The notes under the pieces: generated by a model
Databases searched by the model: none
Seen by the model: the letters and a program-made list of their open reading frames with translations, nothing else
What the model was told of the DNA's origin: nothing
From: an uncultured delta proteobacterium
Lineage (GTDB): Bacteria; Desulfobacterota; Desulfobulbia; Desulfobulbales; Desulfocapsaceae
Reading direction: 5' to 3'
Length of the DNA: 64,000 nucleotides
Assembly (NCBI GenBank): GCA_903901335.1
Contig: CAIUQR010000061.1
Location: forward strand, 124,001-188,000
Program-made: the position numbers and the translations under genes
Shown: piece by piece, positions 14,974 through 21,530 of the stretch
Numbering within the stretch: position 1 is the first letter of the stretch
Layout of the letters: every line of letters begins with the position of its first letter

Positions 14974-16689
14974 TTATTTTTCAACGAAAACCATTGCAAA
15001 CTTTGCATCATATCTGCAGGAGAATCCAAGACTGGTAAGGGCGTCGATTGAAACCTTACTGCCTTTGCTGTCCAGCATACCATCTGTAAACTGAAATTTT
15101 TTCTCTTTAATGGTAAGCGTCCTGGCGCTGGCATCGTAACTTCCTTCGGAAGATGAGGCGATGGATAGTATGTCTACATAGATTTTTCCGTCGATCTCTT
15201 CGGCCTTGCTTGAGCTTCCGGCAGCATAGTTTCCATAGACGACAAGTTTGAGGTCTGCACCGATTACCGGATTATCTTTTGCCGTATGGAATTTCGGAGG
15301 CAGAAGGTCGCCTGCGCTGGTATTTTTTTCAGGATGATCCTTGTCGATGACATAGGTGTCAACCAGAGTTCCATCCTGTTTGAAACACCTGATTGTCAGC
15401 CTTCGGCCATCGAGTTCAACGGTCTGATAATCAGGCTGATCCTGCGGATCGAAGAAGGCGGCATCCCAGACCTTTTTGGTCAGATCGGGATAATACTTTT
15501 CACCGCTCCGCCCGGTGACATAATAGACAGTCCCCTCAGACGAATTCTGCATGATCTCATCCTGGAAGATAGGGTAAGTCCTGGATGACGCATGATCATG
15601 GCCATTGAAGACCACATCTACATGATATGTATCAAAGACCGGACAGAATACTTTCTTTATCAAGGTATTGGTCCTGTTTCCCTTATTGTAGTATGGCGTT
15701 TTGTGGAACAGCACAAAGGTGAAGGCGGCATTCCTGTGGGCGGCAAGGTCCTTGTCCAGCCATGCCGCCTGTTCTTTTAAAAAAGCGTCTTCTTTTACCG
15801 GATCAGCCTTTCCGTCTGCATCTTCGCTTTCTTCCTGCGCCTGGCTGTCGAGCACTGCAAAGTGGCATCTTCCGTAATCGTAAGAATATACCTGGCCTTT
15901 TAAACCATCCGGCCCGTTCTGGAACAGGTTGAACTGGCCTACAAAATATTCGGGCTTTGCACTCTTTGAGTCGTTTCCATTATATGTCTCATGATTTCCC
16001 TCCACAACCAGAGCGGGCAGCGTGTCGATAACACCGTCAACAGCCTTGAACCAGTTGTTCCAGTGTTGATAGTACTGACCGGTTTCGACGAGGTCGCCGA
16101 CATTGATGGAAAATTTTGCATCCGTGTTGGCATGGTAGGCCTTCTGGACGGTCGTATGCCAATTATCATAGTTGGGAACCTCTCTCTTTCCGCTCTGGCT
16201 GTCTCCGAAGAGCAGGAATTTGAAGGTATTGGCTGACTTTTCATCCTGAGATTCGGTTGTAAAAACATGAAAGTTTGTCCACTCATTTTTGTCATTGCCG
16301 ATCTTGTAGATATATTTCGCGCCGGGTTTGAGTCCTGTGAGAGTGGTTGTAAAGATATTCATTGTTCCACTAGAAAGATCGGCTGCAGAAGTTTTGAAGG
16401 CCCTTGGCTGAACAGACGAGATCACCGACATCTTATCAGAATCGCTTTCCAGCGAAATGTATTCAACCTTGCAGCTTTTGACCGAGGAGTCCGTTCTCCA
16501 CGTTATGGTCATGGTTGTAGCAGGGTCTGCTGACCAGGTGAGGGTTATATGGTCGGGTTTGCTTAATGCATTGAGATCGGCATTGATTTGTGTCCCGTCG
16601 TAGGCACCTGCAAAGATGCTTCCAGGTAAAAGAGAAAGACAGGCCGAAATAACCGCCGTCAGAATCCGGTTTAAATCATTTGGTCTCAT
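14974..16689 (-). CDS. Secreted purple-acid-phosphatase-like metallophosphoesterase
   Basis: A 571-residue exported enzyme. The N-terminus is a Sec signal peptide ending near SIFA-GAYDG. A fibronectin-like PAP N-terminal domain follows (about 45-150), then a calcineurin-type metallophosphoesterase domain with the metal motifs FGDSQSG, VGDLVETG, GNHET and NGHDHAS (about 160-430). A C-terminal domain (about 475-571) resembles the copper-amine-oxidase-like stalk domain (EIDGKIYVDI, SYDASARTLTI). It probably releases phosphate from organic phosphates outside the cytoplasm. The ATG at 16689 is preceded by ggaggag; a GTG four codons upstream is less likely. It is divergent from a 5'-nucleotidase-like gene across a 254-bp shared promoter region. 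Confidence 0.85.
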   Translation of the reverse strand: MRPNDLNRILTAVISACLSLLPGSIFAGAYDGTQINADLNALSKPDHITLTWSADPATTMTITWRTDSSVKSCKVEYISLESDSDKMSVISSVQPRAFKTSAADLSSGTMNIFTTTLTGLKPGAKYIYKIGNDKNEWTNFHVFTTESQDEKSANTFKFLLFGDSQSGKREVPNYDNWHTTVQKAYHANTDAKFSINVGDLVETGQYYQHWNNWFKAVDGVIDTLPALVVEGNHETYNGNDSKSAKPEYFVGQFNLFQNGPDGLKGQVYSYDYGRCHFAVLDSQAQEESEDADGKADPVKEDAFLKEQAAWLDKDLAAHRNAAFTFVLFHKTPYYNKGNRTNTLIKKVFCPVFDTYHVDVVFNGHDHASSRTYPIFQDEIMQNSSEGTVYYVTGRSGEKYYPDLTKKVWDAAFFDPQDQPDYQTVELDGRRLTIRCFKQDGTLVDTYVIDKDHPEKNTSAGDLLPPKFHTAKDNPVIGADLKLVVYGNYAAGSSSKAEEIDGKIYVDILSIASSSEGSYDASARTLTIKEKKFQFTDGMLDSKGSKVSIDALTSLGFSCRYDAKFAMVFVEK

Positions 16690-16943
16690 AATCTCCTCCA
16701 CGTAATTAAATTTGTATTTTAAACTTCTGGAAGATAGCTGTCTGGTGTTAATTTCATGTTACGATTTAAAAATATTTTGATTAAGAAATTACCCGCTGTC
16801 CTTTGCCGTTCTCTCCCCTCATCATCTAACACAAATTTCAATAAATACTGACAGTAAACTAACACTATCCGGCGATAATACCCCCAAATCGGAGAGGGTG
16901 ACTTCTCTTGCTCATCACAGGGTACACACTGCCGGAGATTATT

Positions 16944-18584
16944 ATGGACTGCGACTCGCATTTAGCCTCAACCCGCTTTTCCTATCGTTTCAGATTGAAA
17001 TTTCTTCTTCTCGGCTTTCTTCTTCTCTTGTTTGCGCCATTGTCCGCCTGGGTCCGGGCTGAGAAGGATCTCTGTGGTGATTCGCATGGAGATCCACGGT
17101 GCAGGCAGCCATTCGGCAACGACTGTTCAGACATTCAGAAGATCACCTTTGTCCATGTTTCCGATGTCCACGCCCGATACAATCCCGACAAAAACGGGTC
17201 TTCTCCGGCGGGACGGATCCGAGGATATTACCAACAGGTGAAAAAGGAAAACCCCTTCACCCTTTTCACCAACGCCGGCGACGATTATGAAAAAGGCTCA
17301 ATTGCCGAAGAACTCTCCCGGGGACAATCAACAAGAGAAGTGGTGGAGGCCATGCAATATGACGTCCGCACCCTCGGCAATCATGATTTTGCCTGGGGGA
17401 TTGAGGAATTGTTGCGTTTCAGTCACGATCCGTCCGCCATCGTACTTGCCACTAATACCACGATGAGACCCGGATCTGAACAGTCCTCCCGCTCTGCGGC
17501 ACCGGGATGGACCGATTTTGCCATTCGGACCGTCGGATGCGTCAAGATCGGTTTCTTCGGCCTGCTTTCCAAGCCCTGGAATGAAAAAGATCAACAATAT
17601 GAAGGCCTGTTTTACCCGGAAATTCCAGAATTAAAGACCGATTTTCATTTTATCGACAGAGCCAAAGACATTATTGCCAGACACCGGCAGGAGGTGGATG
17701 TCCTGGTCCTTGTCAGCCATCTGGGTTTACCGGACGACATTGCTTTGGCGGAAAAGACAACCGGCATCGATCTGATCCTGGGTGGACACAGCCATACGAA
17801 AATGGAAGTGCCGCTGCGTGTGCATGACACGACTATTGTTCATGCCGGCGCCTTTGCCCAGACGATAGGCAGATACGACATCGAATATGACGTGAAACAG
17901 AAAAGCATCGTCGACAGCAGCTTTAAACTTGTGGCCAACAGCCCCGAAGACATACCGGAAGACCGGGCAACGTCCATCAGGATATCCGGGATTCTGAAGA
18001 AATATGAACAGGAAATGAACGAAACCATAACCGAGGTAAGTAAGGATCAGAACAGACAGGACATGGCTCTTATTGCTGCCCGTGCAGCCGTATCAACACT
18101 GAAGACCGATGCAGCGCTGATCAATATCGGGACGGTGGGGCCGGAATGGCTGCAGGGGCGACTTACCCGCCAGGATATTCTTAACAGTTTCACAGTGGAG
18201 CGACAACCAGCAGGCACTTCGGGACAGAGCAGTCTCTACGTAACGACGGTCAGGGGAACAGATCTGCTTTATGCTGCAGCAGCAAGAGCTGATTCCGTCT
18301 ACTATGGACCGTCATCATTAAATCCAACGGCCTCATACACCATCGCCATTCAGAAAGCGCAGGCCATCAATCAGCGGGAGTTTTTAGGCAGAACGATTGG
18401 CATGACTTCGCCCAAACCGGCAGCAGAAGTCTGGGAGACCGTTGCCGCCTATGCAAAGGACCGCAGGGTGGAGGGACTTTCCATTGATGAAGGACTCCAT
18501 AACCGGGAAAACCGCAATCTGATAGCACTCCTGCAAGGTAGGAATTACGATACGCATTTAGGTGAAAGTGCAGTAATTCTCTGA
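16944..18584 (+). CDS. Secreted 5'-nucleotidase / cyclic phosphodiesterase family enzyme
   Basis: A 546-residue exported UshA-type metallophosphatase. A long signal peptide (hydrophobic run FLLLGFLLLLFAP, likely cut after WVRA) precedes the catalytic domain with HVSDVHARYN, NAGDDYEKG, TLGNHDF, VSHLGL and GGHSHTKM. The C-terminal domain (about 360-546) corresponds to the 5'-nucleotidase nucleotide-binding domain but is short and divergent. The expected role is phosphate release from nucleotides in the periplasm. Start chosen at the ATG with ggag 6 bp upstream; the in-frame TTG at 16908 has no ribosome-binding site. The divergent neighbour is another secreted phosphatase, consistent with coordinated phosphorus scavenging. 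Confidence 0.85.
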   Translation: MDCDSHLASTRFSYRFRLKFLLLGFLLLLFAPLSAWVRAEKDLCGDSHGDPRCRQPFGNDCSDIQKITFVHVSDVHARYNPDKNGSSPAGRIRGYYQQVKKENPFTLFTNAGDDYEKGSIAEELSRGQSTREVVEAMQYDVRTLGNHDFAWGIEELLRFSHDPSAIVLATNTTMRPGSEQSSRSAAPGWTDFAIRTVGCVKIGFFGLLSKPWNEKDQQYEGLFYPEIPELKTDFHFIDRAKDIIARHRQEVDVLVLVSHLGLPDDIALAEKTTGIDLILGGHSHTKMEVPLRVHDTTIVHAGAFAQTIGRYDIEYDVKQKSIVDSSFKLVANSPEDIPEDRATSIRISGILKKYEQEMNETITEVSKDQNRQDMALIAARAAVSTLKTDAALINIGTVGPEWLQGRLTRQDILNSFTVERQPAGTSGQSSLYVTTVRGTDLLYAAAARADSVYYGPSSLNPTASYTIAIQKAQAINQREFLGRTIGMTSPKPAAEVWETVAAYAKDRRVEGLSIDEGLHNRENRNLIALLQGRNYDTHLGESAVIL

Positions 18585-18622: not shown

Positions 18623-19528
18623 TTATGCAGTATTGTTTTTTGTTAAATACTGTGGATATAATTTTTCGGCACACTCAGAACACAACCCATGCGAGAACTC
18701 CGCTTCCGATCTATCTCTGATGTATGATTCAATCTGGAACCAGTTTCCTTTGGTATCCCGGATCCTTTTACAGGAAGAGCAGATAGGCAACATGCCGCTC
18801 AGAAGCTTCACTTTTGCGAGGGAGTCTTCCAGTCGCCCTATGAGTTTTTCACGCTCAAGGGAGGCCTGATTCCGTTCCGAAATATCCTTACAGACTGATA
18901 TAATTGCTGCTTCCCCACCCAGATCGATCAATTCAGCCGATCGGAGCATACAGCGAATCTCCCCGGATTTCATGCGAAATCTGACGTCGTGGTTACTGAG
19001 CCTCCCTTCCTTCTGGAGTATCGGGATCATCACCTTGCGCTCTTCCGGGTCAACCCAGATATTGAGTTCTGCGGAAGTATGGCCTTTGATCTCCTCCTTG
19101 CTGTATCCGGTCATCCGAAGAAAGGCGGTATTCACATCGATATATCGGCCATCGTACAGGCTGCTGATAATGACCCAGTCGGGATTGGCATGAAAGAGCT
19201 TGAAGAATTTTTCTTCCGAGGAGCGAAGATCTCCTTCTGTTTTCCGGCGAATTGTATTCTCATGTCCAATCTGTTCGAGCAGAAGATCACTCTTACGCAT
19301 GACCAGATAAGCAACAATCAGGGCAATAAGGGTGCTGAAAAGGATTGTGACAACGTGTGACTGCCAAACCGTAATCCTGGGAAACAACAACTGCTTCAGA
19401 GACTCATAGACAGTCATACAAGCCAACATCCAGACTGCTGTAATAAGCAACCGGAGCGTCACATGCCGTCTTGTCTTAGAATGTGGATTCTGAGCTGTAA
19501 CGGTATCTGAATCTGTTGGATTTTTCAT
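18623..19528 (-). CDS. Membrane PAS protein with C-terminal double Cys-pair module, no kinase domain
   Basis: A 301-residue protein: two membrane helices (about 24-46 and 58-78), a coiled linker, a PAS domain (about 105-225; ANPDWVIISS, GYSKEEIKG, CKDISERN) and a C-terminal module PICSSCKRIRDTKGNW ... SHGLCSECAEKLYPQY (about 245-295). There is no HisKA, HATPase, GGDEF or EAL domain, so it must pass its signal through the last module or a partner. That module, with CxxC, Trp, then SHGLCxEC and YPxY, is often found at the ends of deltaproteobacterial sensors and is probably metal-binding. A separate small gene at 21252-21530 encodes the same module alone. Confidence 0.8.
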   Translation of the reverse strand: MKNPTDSDTVTAQNPHSKTRRHVTLRLLITAVWMLACMTVYESLKQLLFPRITVWQSHVVTILFSTLIALIVAYLVMRKSDLLLEQIGHENTIRRKTEGDLRSSEEKFFKLFHANPDWVIISSLYDGRYIDVNTAFLRMTGYSKEEIKGHTSAELNIWVDPEERKVMIPILQKEGRLSNHDVRFRMKSGEIRCMLRSAELIDLGGEAAIISVCKDISERNQASLEREKLIGRLEDSLAKVKLLSGMLPICSSCKRIRDTKGNWFQIESYIRDRSEAEFSHGLCSECAEKLYPQYLTKNNTA

Positions 19529-19885
19529 TTGCGTAAAATTTCTGAAGGCAGTGAATTTTATAGTTCATTAATTCTATGCAGAATTGCCGATCCTTACAAG
19601 AAATTTAACCAAGGAGGATAAGGTTCCTTGCAGAATGTCGGTTACAAGATACAGGGGACATTGTCGCATCCCCCTCACAGAGATGGTTCTGCTCGTTTTT
19701 TTCACAATGACTGTTCAAACGCCGACAATGATCCAGACCAACAAACCAGGCAAAAAACAGCATCCCCACTGACAGATGGTCGGCCGTTCTCAAGGCGGGA
19801 TGGGAACGAAAATCTCATATTGTCCAAATCTTTCCCTAACAGGATCTCCTTATAATGAGCAAAATTATTCATTAAGGAGAAACGG
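19529..19885. other. Intergenic region upstream of the psiE-like gene
   Basis: This 357-bp gap lies between the divergent PAS-protein and psiE-like genes. A strong Shine-Dalgarno-like aaggagga (19611-19618) precedes a TTG and a 75-codon frame, but the peptide has no recognisable features and ends without a following gene. A TATAAT (19851-19856) just upstream of psiE may be its -10 box. Confidence 0.4.
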
Positions 19886-20329
19886 ATGCTGCAAGAAAAG
19901 AAAGCAAGGACGTTGGAATTGTTCCATATCATGGTGGGATATATCATCAATATCCTCATCGTCTATATCATTGTCGTCCTTATGGCAGGACTCCTGAAGG
20001 TGCTCTATCCTCTGAACGTACTATTCGATCAGTATCTCTTTAAACTTGATTTGTCCCATACCGTTACCGATATTCTGACCTTCCTGGTCATGATCGAACT
20101 GTTCCGCAGTTTTATCGAATACCTGAAGGTGAAACGCATCCGTTTGCATAGCATGATCGATCCGGCAATCATCTTCATCATCCGGGAATTAATTGTTATG
20201 CTCTACTCCCAAACCGCGCCGGTGGGCAGCACCCTGATTGGATTCGCTGTGTTATTGCTGGCTCTTGGGACCGTCAGAACCATGGCGGTGATCTTCAGTC
20301 CAAAGGAAGACTTTCCACCGAGAAGTTGA
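19886..20329 (+). CDS. psiE: PsiE-family phosphate-starvation-inducible membrane protein
   Basis: A 147-residue protein with four membrane helices (about 15-38, 55-75, 90-110 and 115-135). The PsiE-family pattern is seen in the conserved middle: ILTFLVMIELFRSFIEYLK, then RIRLHSMIDPAIIFIIREL. In E. coli psiE is induced on phosphate starvation through PhoB; its molecular function is unknown. A good ribosome-binding site (aaggag) lies 8 bp before the ATG, and a TATAAT about 30 bp upstream is a likely -10. Together with phoBR, the PhoH2-type gene and the phosphatases it adds to the phosphate theme of the first 21 kb. No clear Pho box was found. Confidence 0.8.
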   Translation: MLQEKKARTLELFHIMVGYIINILIVYIIVVLMAGLLKVLYPLNVLFDQYLFKLDLSHTVTDILTFLVMIELFRSFIEYLKVKRIRLHSMIDPAIIFIIRELIVMLYSQTAPVGSTLIGFAVLLLALGTVRTMAVIFSPKEDFPPRS

Positions 20330-20649
20330 GGAGTTTTCTGCAAAATTGAAAAAGGGGGTAAGCTGGTTTTTTGCCGATTCGGTCAGGAGATCATCACAGA
20401 GAGGAGAGGGCCGCATAATAGACACGACCTGAATCCAAAAGGCACGCCTCTCGAACATCGCCAGCAGGGTAGAGAAAAAAACAGAAGGGTTGAGGTTTGG
20501 TTAATGTAATTATTTTCTTAGAGCAATTTTAACACGACCATAACCCCGTAAAAATAAATGTGCGATAGTATCAGGGGCAACATGGAAGATAGGAGTGTAT
20601 AGCCCGAACAGAAGGACAAAAAAAACAGAAATTGAGAAGGAGAACAACA
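20330..20649. other. Intergenic region upstream of the dksA-like gene
   Basis: About 320 bp with no gene on either strand that has a start site or motif. A 126-codon minus-strand frame (20518-20898) is an antisense shadow of the dksA-like gene. No convincing terminator follows psiE. Confidence 0.4.
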
Positions 20650-21075
20650 ATGCTGGAATATCGTTTTGATGAATATCGTCCCACGGAAGATGAAGAATAT
20701 ATGTGCCCTAATCATCGTGAATATTTCAAACAAAAGCTCCTGGCACGGCGGCAAGAACTCATAGCGATATCGCAGCTCTTTCTCGTCGAACTCAAAGAAA
20801 ACGGTATCAAGGCGGCCGATACCCTTGATCAAAGCAGTCATCATGCCGAGATGTTTATTGATTTTTCCACCAGCGAGCGGCAGCAGAAGATTCTGCATGA
20901 CATCGACCTGGCCCTGGTCAGGATAGAAACAGGTGAATATGGCTATTGCGAAATCACCGGTGAAGAAATAGGTCTAAGAAGGCTAGAGGCCCAGCCTCTT
21001 GCCGCCCGCTGCGTCGAGGCCCAAAAAATATTTGAACGCTCCATGAATGTGAAGACGCGAGTGGCAAACTGGTAA
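20650..21075 (+). CDS. DksA/TraR-family transcription factor, zinc-independent type
   Basis: A 141-residue DksA-family protein that should bind the secondary channel of RNA polymerase and act with ppGpp. The coiled-coil tip appears as ADTLDQSS (family: DxxDxA), followed by the C-terminal region GEYGYCEITGEEIGLRRLEA and AARCVEAQ. The usual four zinc Cys are reduced to the pattern Cys-Thr-Cys-Ala (CEIT ... CVEA), the same pattern as Pseudomonas aeruginosa DksA2, which folds without zinc. The start is the ATG with aaggag 7 bp upstream; an in-frame ATG 18 bp earlier lies before that site. A Zn-free paralogue would be useful under metal limitation or in sulfidic conditions where zinc is scarce, which is inference. 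Confidence 0.88.
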   Translation: MLEYRFDEYRPTEDEEYMCPNHREYFKQKLLARRQELIAISQLFLVELKENGIKAADTLDQSSHHAEMFIDFSTSERQQKILHDIDLALVRIETGEYGYCEITGEEIGLRRLEAQPLAARCVEAQKIFERSMNVKTRVANW

Positions 21076-21251
21076 GCAGGCAGAGAGGTGAGAATTGCAT
21101 CAAAAGATGAAGTGTTCCGGCCAGTCAGCATCCCCTGGATACCCACAAAGCACGTCGGGTTCGTGTTTCCGTTGTAGAGGGAAAGGGCAGACTCACCTTT
21201 CTTGTTATGGCAATCCACTTCGCCTTTGCTGGACTACTTCATATAGAACTT

Positions 21252-21530
21252 TCAATCATAGACAAAACATCCGTATAGCACTTTGTTGTTCGGCATTACT
21301 ATTTCTTTGATAACAATTCTTCCTTCCTCACGAAGAGATAAATATTCGTCAGGATAATGGTCTCGAAAACACTCTGGACAAAGGCCATGACTTATTCGTG
21401 TTTCAGTAACAGTTTTATAATATTCATATTCTTTCTCCCAATATCCTGCCTCATTTTTATATTTATCGCAAAATGCGCAGATCAACCGCAAACCCTCAAG
21501 ATGTACTTTTTGTCCTATAAACTCGCTCAT
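21252..21530 (-). CDS. Small protein: free-standing CxxC...SHGLCxEC module
   Basis: A 92-residue soluble protein. The core is LICAFCDKYKNEAGYW ... SHGLCPECFRDHYPDEY, which matches the C-terminal module of the PAS protein at 18623-19528: a CxxC with basic residues after it, a conserved Trp and Glu-Tyr, then SHGLCxEC and a YP motif. The start at 21530 is preceded by ggaggag 6-12 bp upstream; a 27-codon-longer frame has no such site. The extra C-terminal 30 residues are beta-like. It is probably a small metal-binding signalling protein; I know of no named function. Two Cys pairs separated by about 35 residues would suit a zinc site. Confidence 0.65.
   Translation of the reverse strand: MSEFIGQKVHLEGLRLICAFCDKYKNEAGYWEKEYEYYKTVTETRISHGLCPECFRDHYPDEYLSLREEGRIVIKEIVMPNNKVLYGCFVYD

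Follow-up and report, generated by a model that had tools for sequence, protein, structure and literature searches.

Through what does a PAS sensor protein pass on its signal when its only candidate for an output domain is a cysteine module of about fifty residues? The question is raised by a 64,000-nt stretch of DNA from the Desulfocapsaceae (assembly GCA_903901335.1, contig CAIUQR010000061.1, positions 124,001-188,000; hereafter, the window), where the region at 18,623-21,530 holds two copies of such a module, i.e., one at the end of a membrane PAS protein (P0001) and one in a short, free-standing protein (P0002). A preliminary description of this region had taken the module for a real signalling or metal-binding domain that can act in trans, for example as an output or docking unit. 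The answer that we favour, and hold to be somewhat probable, is that the module is a dimeric Cys4 (probably zinc) output domain switched via a coiled coil, with protein docking as its favoured role. This answer rests on the fused copies.

A four-cysteine module with fixed spacing

P0001 is built in the order transmembrane part, PAS domain, coil and module, and its C-terminal part contains LSGMLPICSSCKRIRDTKGNWFQIESYIRDRSEAEFSHGLCSECAEKLYPQ, with the pattern CxxC...SHGxCxxC; the module sequence of P0002 is LICAFCDKYKNEAGYWEKEYEYYKTVTETRISHGLCPECFRDHYP. In both window copies, 29 residues separate the CxxC pairs. That one module occurs here in two copies, PAS-fused and free-standing, is borne out by BLASTP of P0001 against P0002 (36% identity over 55 aa, E=2e-11) and by a profile-profile comparison of 15 fused modules with 3 free-standing proteins, which aligned with a probability of 99.0% and E=3.2e-18. 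The failure to align that the preliminary description had named as a refutation thus did not occur, and a chance likeness is excluded.

We collected 286 proteins with a pattern that requires both CxxC pairs and allows H, M, F or Y at the histidine position, which means that the conservation of the cysteines is partly by construction. The distance of 29 residues is kept in 284/286, and the histidine of the SHG position in 285/286, the sole exception to the latter being an unrelated protein that is included in the set (L100, minus strand). The only homologous exception to the spacing is L014 (contig C83), a REC-module protein with six extra residues between its CxxC pairs. The ClpX entries L190-L209 were left out of the set; the C155 protein, L017 and L220 are relatives that do not fit the pattern and lie outside it. 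Each protein was read from the first start codon that follows a stop. In 268 fused modules, counting from the first Cys, the positions L-7, G-5, P-2, K+4, I+6, R+7, D+9, G+11, W+13, E+17, Y+19, F+28, P+34, Y+41 and P+42 are 91-100% conserved, with individual values of 98% for K+4, 97% for R+7, 98% for G+11, 99% for W+13, 95% for E+17 and 97% for Y+19.

The predicted model of the P0001 end (mean predicted local distance difference test score, pLDDT, 82; predicted template modelling score, pTM, 0.47) begins with a helix and a strand, the latter ending at the first cysteine pair; a hairpin, a short helix and another strand come next, and the second cysteine pair opens the helix that follows. This order of elements is treble-clef-like, and the secondary structure of our medium-confidence models fits a treble-clef zinc finger, the best fold match being not significant. 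The module is a real domain, as the preliminary description had supposed, and with four cysteines at fixed spacing it is very probably metal-binding.

The module stands at the output end of signalling proteins

From 80 loci of named species, 86 of the 87 pattern matches were used (L100 was dropped). The module is the last domain in all 86 proteins, where an enzyme or a DNA-binding part would usually be, with 7-47 residues after the last Cys; two of these proteins are cut at their start, and three have fewer than 60 residues ahead of the module. A count of the fusions, which the preliminary description had called for, gave PAS_9 in 39 proteins and REC in 25, followed by HAMP, GAF, Cache, MASE and binding-protein domains. 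No kinase, cyclase, phosphodiesterase or DNA-binding domain is found among the 25 families listed out of 33, each of the other eight matching at most one member. The families HisKA_7TM, Diguanyl_cycl_sensor and PDE8A_N are output-like in name only and are actually sensor or N-terminal regions. P0001 itself, in agreement with the earlier reading of it, has no output domain besides the module in Pfam and NCBIfam searches.

In three cases, the module can be compared with a known output domain that follows, or stands next to, a related input. Residues 23-234 of P0001, i.e., its membrane part and PAS domain, share 63% identity (133/212) with the N-terminal part of a protein from a sister species of the same genus; in that protein, which has about 1,080 aa, further PAS domains, HisKA, HATPase_c and REC follow. 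The window's own genome encodes a MASE3-like sensor with the module, and elsewhere in the order a histidine kinase has a sensor part that is 32% identical to it. Contig C141 carries three genes in series on one strand, for a hybrid kinase, a REC-module protein and a REC-sigma54 activator, with start and stop codons that overlap by coordinates; the RECs of the module protein and the activator are 54% identical. Several minus-strand proteins in the swap and C141 comparisons were taken one residue short at the C-terminus.

A histidine kinase domain occurs in 11 and REC in 10 of 54 same-strand neighbours of module genes, counts for which there is no control set for comparison; two of the 56 neighbours were left out, L146:2244-4436 as itself a module protein and L159:3234-8765 for its length. 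As a separate observation, L042:14264-17581 (minus strand) encodes a CheB-CheR-PAS protein with the module at its end instead of a kinase, and it adjoins a gene for a PAS-sigma54 activator.

Linkers to the module change in steps of seven

The ends of the PAS and REC domains were taken from hidden Markov models built on members of the same set, and an error in these ends would blur a seven-step pattern, not create one. From the PAS end to the first Cys, the linker measures 9 (n=2), 16 (n=1), 23 (n=3), 30 (n=105) or 37 (n=3) residues in 114 of the 116 linkers of up to 60 residues; the total PAS set is 127 proteins, eight of which have another domain in between. From the REC end to the first Cys, it measures 18, 25, 32, 39, 46 or 60 residues in 41/56 proteins, 26, 33 or 40 in 14/56, and 42 in one. 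The class of 26, 33 and 40 would be a type of REC whose end falls one residue off. With proteins clustered at 50% identity, the period-7 statistic of the REC linkers exceeded all 100,000 jittered nulls, with or without the commonest length (p<=1e-5). The PAS linkers of all lengths likewise exceeded all 100,000 jittered nulls for period 7, and without the commonest length gave p=0.006.

The coil ahead of the module is alike in the PAS and REC classes. L-17, A-14 and L-13 take the a, d and e positions of one heptad, flanked by L-21 and I-20 on one side and V-10 and L-7 on the other, and positions -24 and -6 are mostly polar. The RECs are intact, with the phospho-acceptor Asp in 56/56, Thr or Ser in 55/56 and Lys in 53/56. 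Linker lengths in steps of seven have been published for Rec-GGDEF cyclases (PMC8041772) and photoreceptor kinases (PMC6798134), where the rule marks a continuous coiled coil. Because output domains are swapped and the linkers are heptad-spaced, an output position of the module is supported, in line with the preliminary description of it as an output unit.

Five PAS-module proteins with linkers of 41, 48 or 69 residues (L228, L327, L137, L234 and L084) share another phase, 6 mod 7. In four of them there is an additional helix that includes a VxERT- or VxQRT-like stretch, and L234 has a membrane-like stretch; they possibly represent a second coupling geometry.

Free-standing copies are of two sorts

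Judged by coil, tail and canonical residues, the free-standing copies fall into two sorts. L148, L149 and L174 keep the coil and nearly all canonical residues, with only the sensor missing. P0002, its sister-species relative L210, L214, L224 and, in part, L013 are without such a coil and mostly have an end tail of their own. P0002 has no helix ahead of its module, and its tail is absent from the fused modules aligned with it. Of the 23 positions with a conservation of 85% or more in the 268 fused modules, 14 are retained in P0002 and nine differ. The nine include every one of the four charged positions (K to D, R to K, D to E and E to Y); the K, I, R, D and E of fused modules are replaced in P0002 by D, Y, K, E and Y. 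Since it lacks a coil, has its own tail and differs at all four charged positions, P0002 is best read from its sequence as a diverged relative of the fused module, and the same applies to the free-standing genes of this genus. Free-standing forms may act in trans; the earlier idea that the copy in the window is the same unit doing so is not supported, and P0002 gives no evidence for a canonical module acting in trans.

A 107-aa paralogue of P0002 is found in two species of the genus (L043:7984-8304 and L371:3189-3509, both minus strand). The pair shares 61/107 residues and has lost the last Cys (CPEG), and is thus a conserved copy with a broken metal site; in both species, a gene that by eye is murA-like stands beside it.

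The module is widespread

The genome of the window has 17 module matches at E<=1e-4, P0001 and P0002 among them, one of which (contig C149) is a fragment with an internal stop. At least one match is present in 79 of 97 genomes (this one and its relatives), with a maximum of 19 per genome. Of 148 genomes drawn evenly from the phylum, 66 have the module at E<=1e-8, and of 395 genomes of the phylum, 178 are matched by a profile of three free-standing rows (E<=1e-6). Genomes of named species yielded at least 583 confirmed module stretches, from which the 80 loci were kept for analysis. The record titles of these loci name Thermodesulfobacteriota/Deltaproteobacteria, Nitrospirae, Spirochaetes, Acidobacteria, Chloroflexi, Verrucomicrobia, Myxococcales, Bacteroidetes, Ignavibacteriae, Sumerlaeota, Hydrogenedentota, Neomarinimicrobiota, KSB1, Fermentibacteria and others; nearly all come from metagenome bins, so individual phylum names may be wrong. 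As for mobile spread, one of 72,556 plasmid records has a partial match (44 residues, 52%) and none of 50,697 phages has any.

Proposed mechanism and rival explanations

Taken together with the intact receivers, the end position, the swaps and the linker rule of the fused copies are consistent with the module being a small effector, or output, domain in one- and two-component signalling. Conservation and the medium-confidence model suggest that its four cysteines (CxxC-29-CxxC) would hold a single metal ion, zinc being the likeliest, and that its fold would be treble-clef-like. By sequence, a coiled coil leads into it from a PAS, REC or membrane sensor, and the seven-step linkers would keep input and module in a fixed rotational phase, for which reason we picture the modules as a pair. 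If the analogy with Rec-GGDEF enzymes holds, a ligand bound to PAS or a phosphate on REC would shift the register of the coil and rearrange the paired modules, which might then open or close a docking surface and so dock on a partner. Because so many polar residues are conserved (K, R, D, W, E, Y and H), we infer one conserved target or ligand. Proteins of the P0002 type, coil-less and with an altered surface, could speculatively be diverged relatives with another partner, or could pair with fused modules and blunt them.

A bolder form of this proposal, possible in our view and on the doubtful side, is that the module belongs to the large but unnamed output domains of bacterial signalling and occurs in a dozen or more phyla. 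PAS or phosphorylated REC would then drive a register switch of the coil that makes a zinc-finger dimer engage one conserved general target (e.g., RNA polymerase, a protease or a second messenger), and coil-less forms like P0002 would pair with or compete against fused modules.

Several observations weigh against the output-domain proposal. The models are of medium confidence only (the other one has a mean pLDDT of 72.5 and a pTM of 0.59, next to the values given above), and fold searches returned only chance-level matches (best Z 2.7 at a root-mean-square deviation of 3.0 over 51 aligned residues; Foldseek E>=2). No conserved partner gene emerged among the 54 same-strand neighbours. The PAS linkers of 41 and 48 residues are both off phase, as are three of 69 residues. 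The non-modal PAS evidence consists of 11 proteins including those two, and in it, period 3.5 scores 0.94 against 0.66 for period 7; the dominant class of 105 proteins at 30 residues may trace back to few fusions. A further 20 REC matches lie 74 to 695 residues from the module and are uninformative. Finally, the stretch that follows the module is longer than 60 residues in 6 of the 286 proteins of the wider set. By eye, it leads into REC in two of these and into REC plus a kinase-like region in one, and L054 is an apparent frame run-on.

Some of these longer proteins deserve a description of their own. L181 and L186 have, by eye, a receiver-like domain after the module, the arrangement known from hybrid histidine kinases except that the module replaces the kinase. 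L071, L350 and L235 have 110 to 431 residues after it, which by eye include REC and kinase-like sequence in L235 and something like a degenerate GGDEF domain in L071.

The same output role could also be filled by a zinc domain that binds DNA or RNA, which would make these proteins regulators of transcription or RNA, akin to response regulators with a zinc-finger effector. REC-module proteins do resemble response regulators with a phosphorylatable REC, a conserved K and R follow the first Cys pair, and the archaeal HalOD2, which has two CXXC, has been suggested to bind DNA or RNA (PMC5847659). We nevertheless consider nucleic-acid binding unlikely, since many copies sit on proteins with membrane or periplasmic sensors (P0001, MASE, Cache and HAMP), which is unusual for DNA binding, and since D, E and W are among the conserved polar residues along with K and R. 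That same conservation could be read as an enzyme or small-molecule site, in which the histidine and K, R, D, W and E gather beside the zinc: the near-invariant histidine and the 95-99% conservation of K, R, G, W, E and Y go beyond the needs of a bare structural zinc finger. Such a site seems quite unlikely in a module of only about 50 residues with no convincing enzyme similarity in Pfam, NCBIfam or PDB sequences, and P0002 retains the histidine yet alters K, R, D and E.

It is also conceivable that the module does not act on any target. As a passive cap, it would dimerise and stabilise the coiled coil, as small zinc domains such as those of CsfB and ClpX can dimerise (PMC5890618); this we regard as very unlikely, given that it leaves unexplained both the strong conservation of polar residues and the existence of REC-module proteins with nothing else. 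The direction of signalling could instead be reversed, with the module as a redox or metal sensor at the protein end that passes a signal back to PAS or REC. Cys4 sites can serve as redox switches, and a PerR zinc site turns up in the fold rows of chance level, but most module proteins would then be without any output, the swap pairs put the module in the position of kinases or of a sigma54 activator, and the heptad phase is fixed from input domain to module, all of which makes an input role highly improbable.

Sensor and response-regulator proteins that end in the module carry no output domain in Pfam or NCBIfam annotation. Should the module be that output, a role open to testing could be assigned to up to 19 proteins per genome, and what its target is would become a well-defined question. 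The natural swap pairs, together with the linker rule, offer ready-made constructs with which to test and engineer it.

The two genes in the window

Coordinates of P0001, P0002 and their parts are given in Table 1. The hydropathy of P0001 exceeds 1.3 at residues 22-45 and 52-85 (19-residue windows). The 92-aa start of P0002 is supported by the good ribosome-binding-like GGAGGAGAAGTA that precedes it.

Table 1. Features of the two module genes, with coordinates in the window
Feature	Coordinates	Strand	Basis or remark
P0001, membrane PAS protein with C-terminal module, 301 aa	18623..19528	-	Pfam PAS_9 E=3.9e-9; NCBIfam sensory_box E=1.3e-17
P0001, two predicted transmembrane stretches, residues about 22-85	19274..19465	-	hydropathy
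P0001, PAS domain, residues about 106-218	18875..19213	-	domain-library match
P0001, putative coiled-coil signalling helix from PAS to module, residues about 219-244	18797..18874	-	helix in predicted model; heptad pattern across relatives
P0001, fused module copy, residues 243-291; C250, C253, H280, C283, C286	18656..18802	-	
P0002, free-standing module protein, 92 aa	21252..21530	-	ribosome-binding-like GGAGGAGAAGTA just upstream
P0002, free-standing module copy, residues 11-60; C18, C21, H48, C51, C54	21351..21500	-	
P0002, C-terminal tail, residues 61-92 (32 residues), predicted beta hairpin	21255..21350	-	

A shared operon for P0001 and P0002 was rejected, as two plus-strand genes stand between them, one of the PsiE family (19886-20329) and one DksA-like (20632-21075). 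With 17 copies in 4.83 Mb, about 0.15 module pairs within 2.7 kb are expected by chance, and because the closeness of P0001 and P0002 is within this expectation, it is no evidence of a link. In the sister species, the open frames that neighbour the P0002 relative L210 (in L370) look different by eye. Divergent metallophosphoesterase genes at 14974-16701 (minus strand) and 16908-18584 (plus strand) adjoin the PAS gene, one of them purple-acid-phosphatase-like and the other partly similar to 5'-nucleotidase and SoxB models.

Comparison with known families and systems

No convincing match to the module was found in Pfam, NCBIfam, PHROGs or PDB sequences, where the best rows looked like chance (E6 0.061, MrpA_fam 0.0092, phrog_38508 0.0055, phrog_9035 0.0068, R-spondin 0.19 and an engineered gp41 chain 0.0043). 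PerR, Fin and a chain of the pre-60S ribosome stand among the weak fold rows and are not used as evidence. A literature search found no paper on the conserved strings of the module and, from titles and the starts of abstracts, none recognisable as treating such an output domain, most subscription papers lying outside the search. The module may already have a name in InterPro, CDD, COG or PANTHER, which are outside the libraries searched. Output domains after coiled coils are of a kind already well known, and it is the module family itself for which we found no library model or paper.

The zinc-binding domain of ClpX (PF06689) and the anti-sigma factor CsfB/Gin, both treble-clef zinc dimers, are like the module in their two CxxC pairs, of which the second lies where a helix makes its first turn (for the module, according to the predicted model), and the ClpX domain and CsfB both dimerise and bind other proteins (PMC5890618). 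A relation to ClpX was rejected, with an hhalign probability of at most 0.1% against 20 ClpX sequences and no hit in hmmscan at E<=1. In CsfB, 15 residues lie between the pairs (C14 to C30; PMC5890618), as opposed to 29 in the module; CsfB/Gin is absent from hmmscan at E<=1 and from the fold rows, where a missing row excludes nothing.

HalOD2 and TackOD1, cysteine-rich output domains of archaeal response regulators that are described as being of unknown function (PMC5847659), are similar to the module in being REC-linked, with CXXC pairs and predicted metal binding. We rejected both as identities of the module, since its cysteine pattern does not fit what is published there: HalOD2 has CXXC pairs 20-25 residues apart and occurs in a few halobacteria, in contrast to the 29 residues and the many bacterial phyla of the module, and TackOD1 has five CXXC and one HXXC, where the module has two CxxC with SH ahead of the second.

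A close parallel in architecture is with Rec-GGDEF enzymes, PAS/LOV-coupled diguanylate cyclases and sensor histidine kinases, such as DgcR and YF1 (PMC8041772 and PMC6798134). Module proteins share with these the kinds of N-terminal input, the seven-step coiled-coil linkers, an a-d-e hydrophobic heptad and a phosphorylatable REC, and one heptad of the module coil resembles the switchable axxdexx pattern of Rec-GGDEF enzymes (PMC8041772). In contrast to the DgcR and YF1 type, the end domain here is a Cys4 module of about 50 residues, with no GGDEF or kinase domain.

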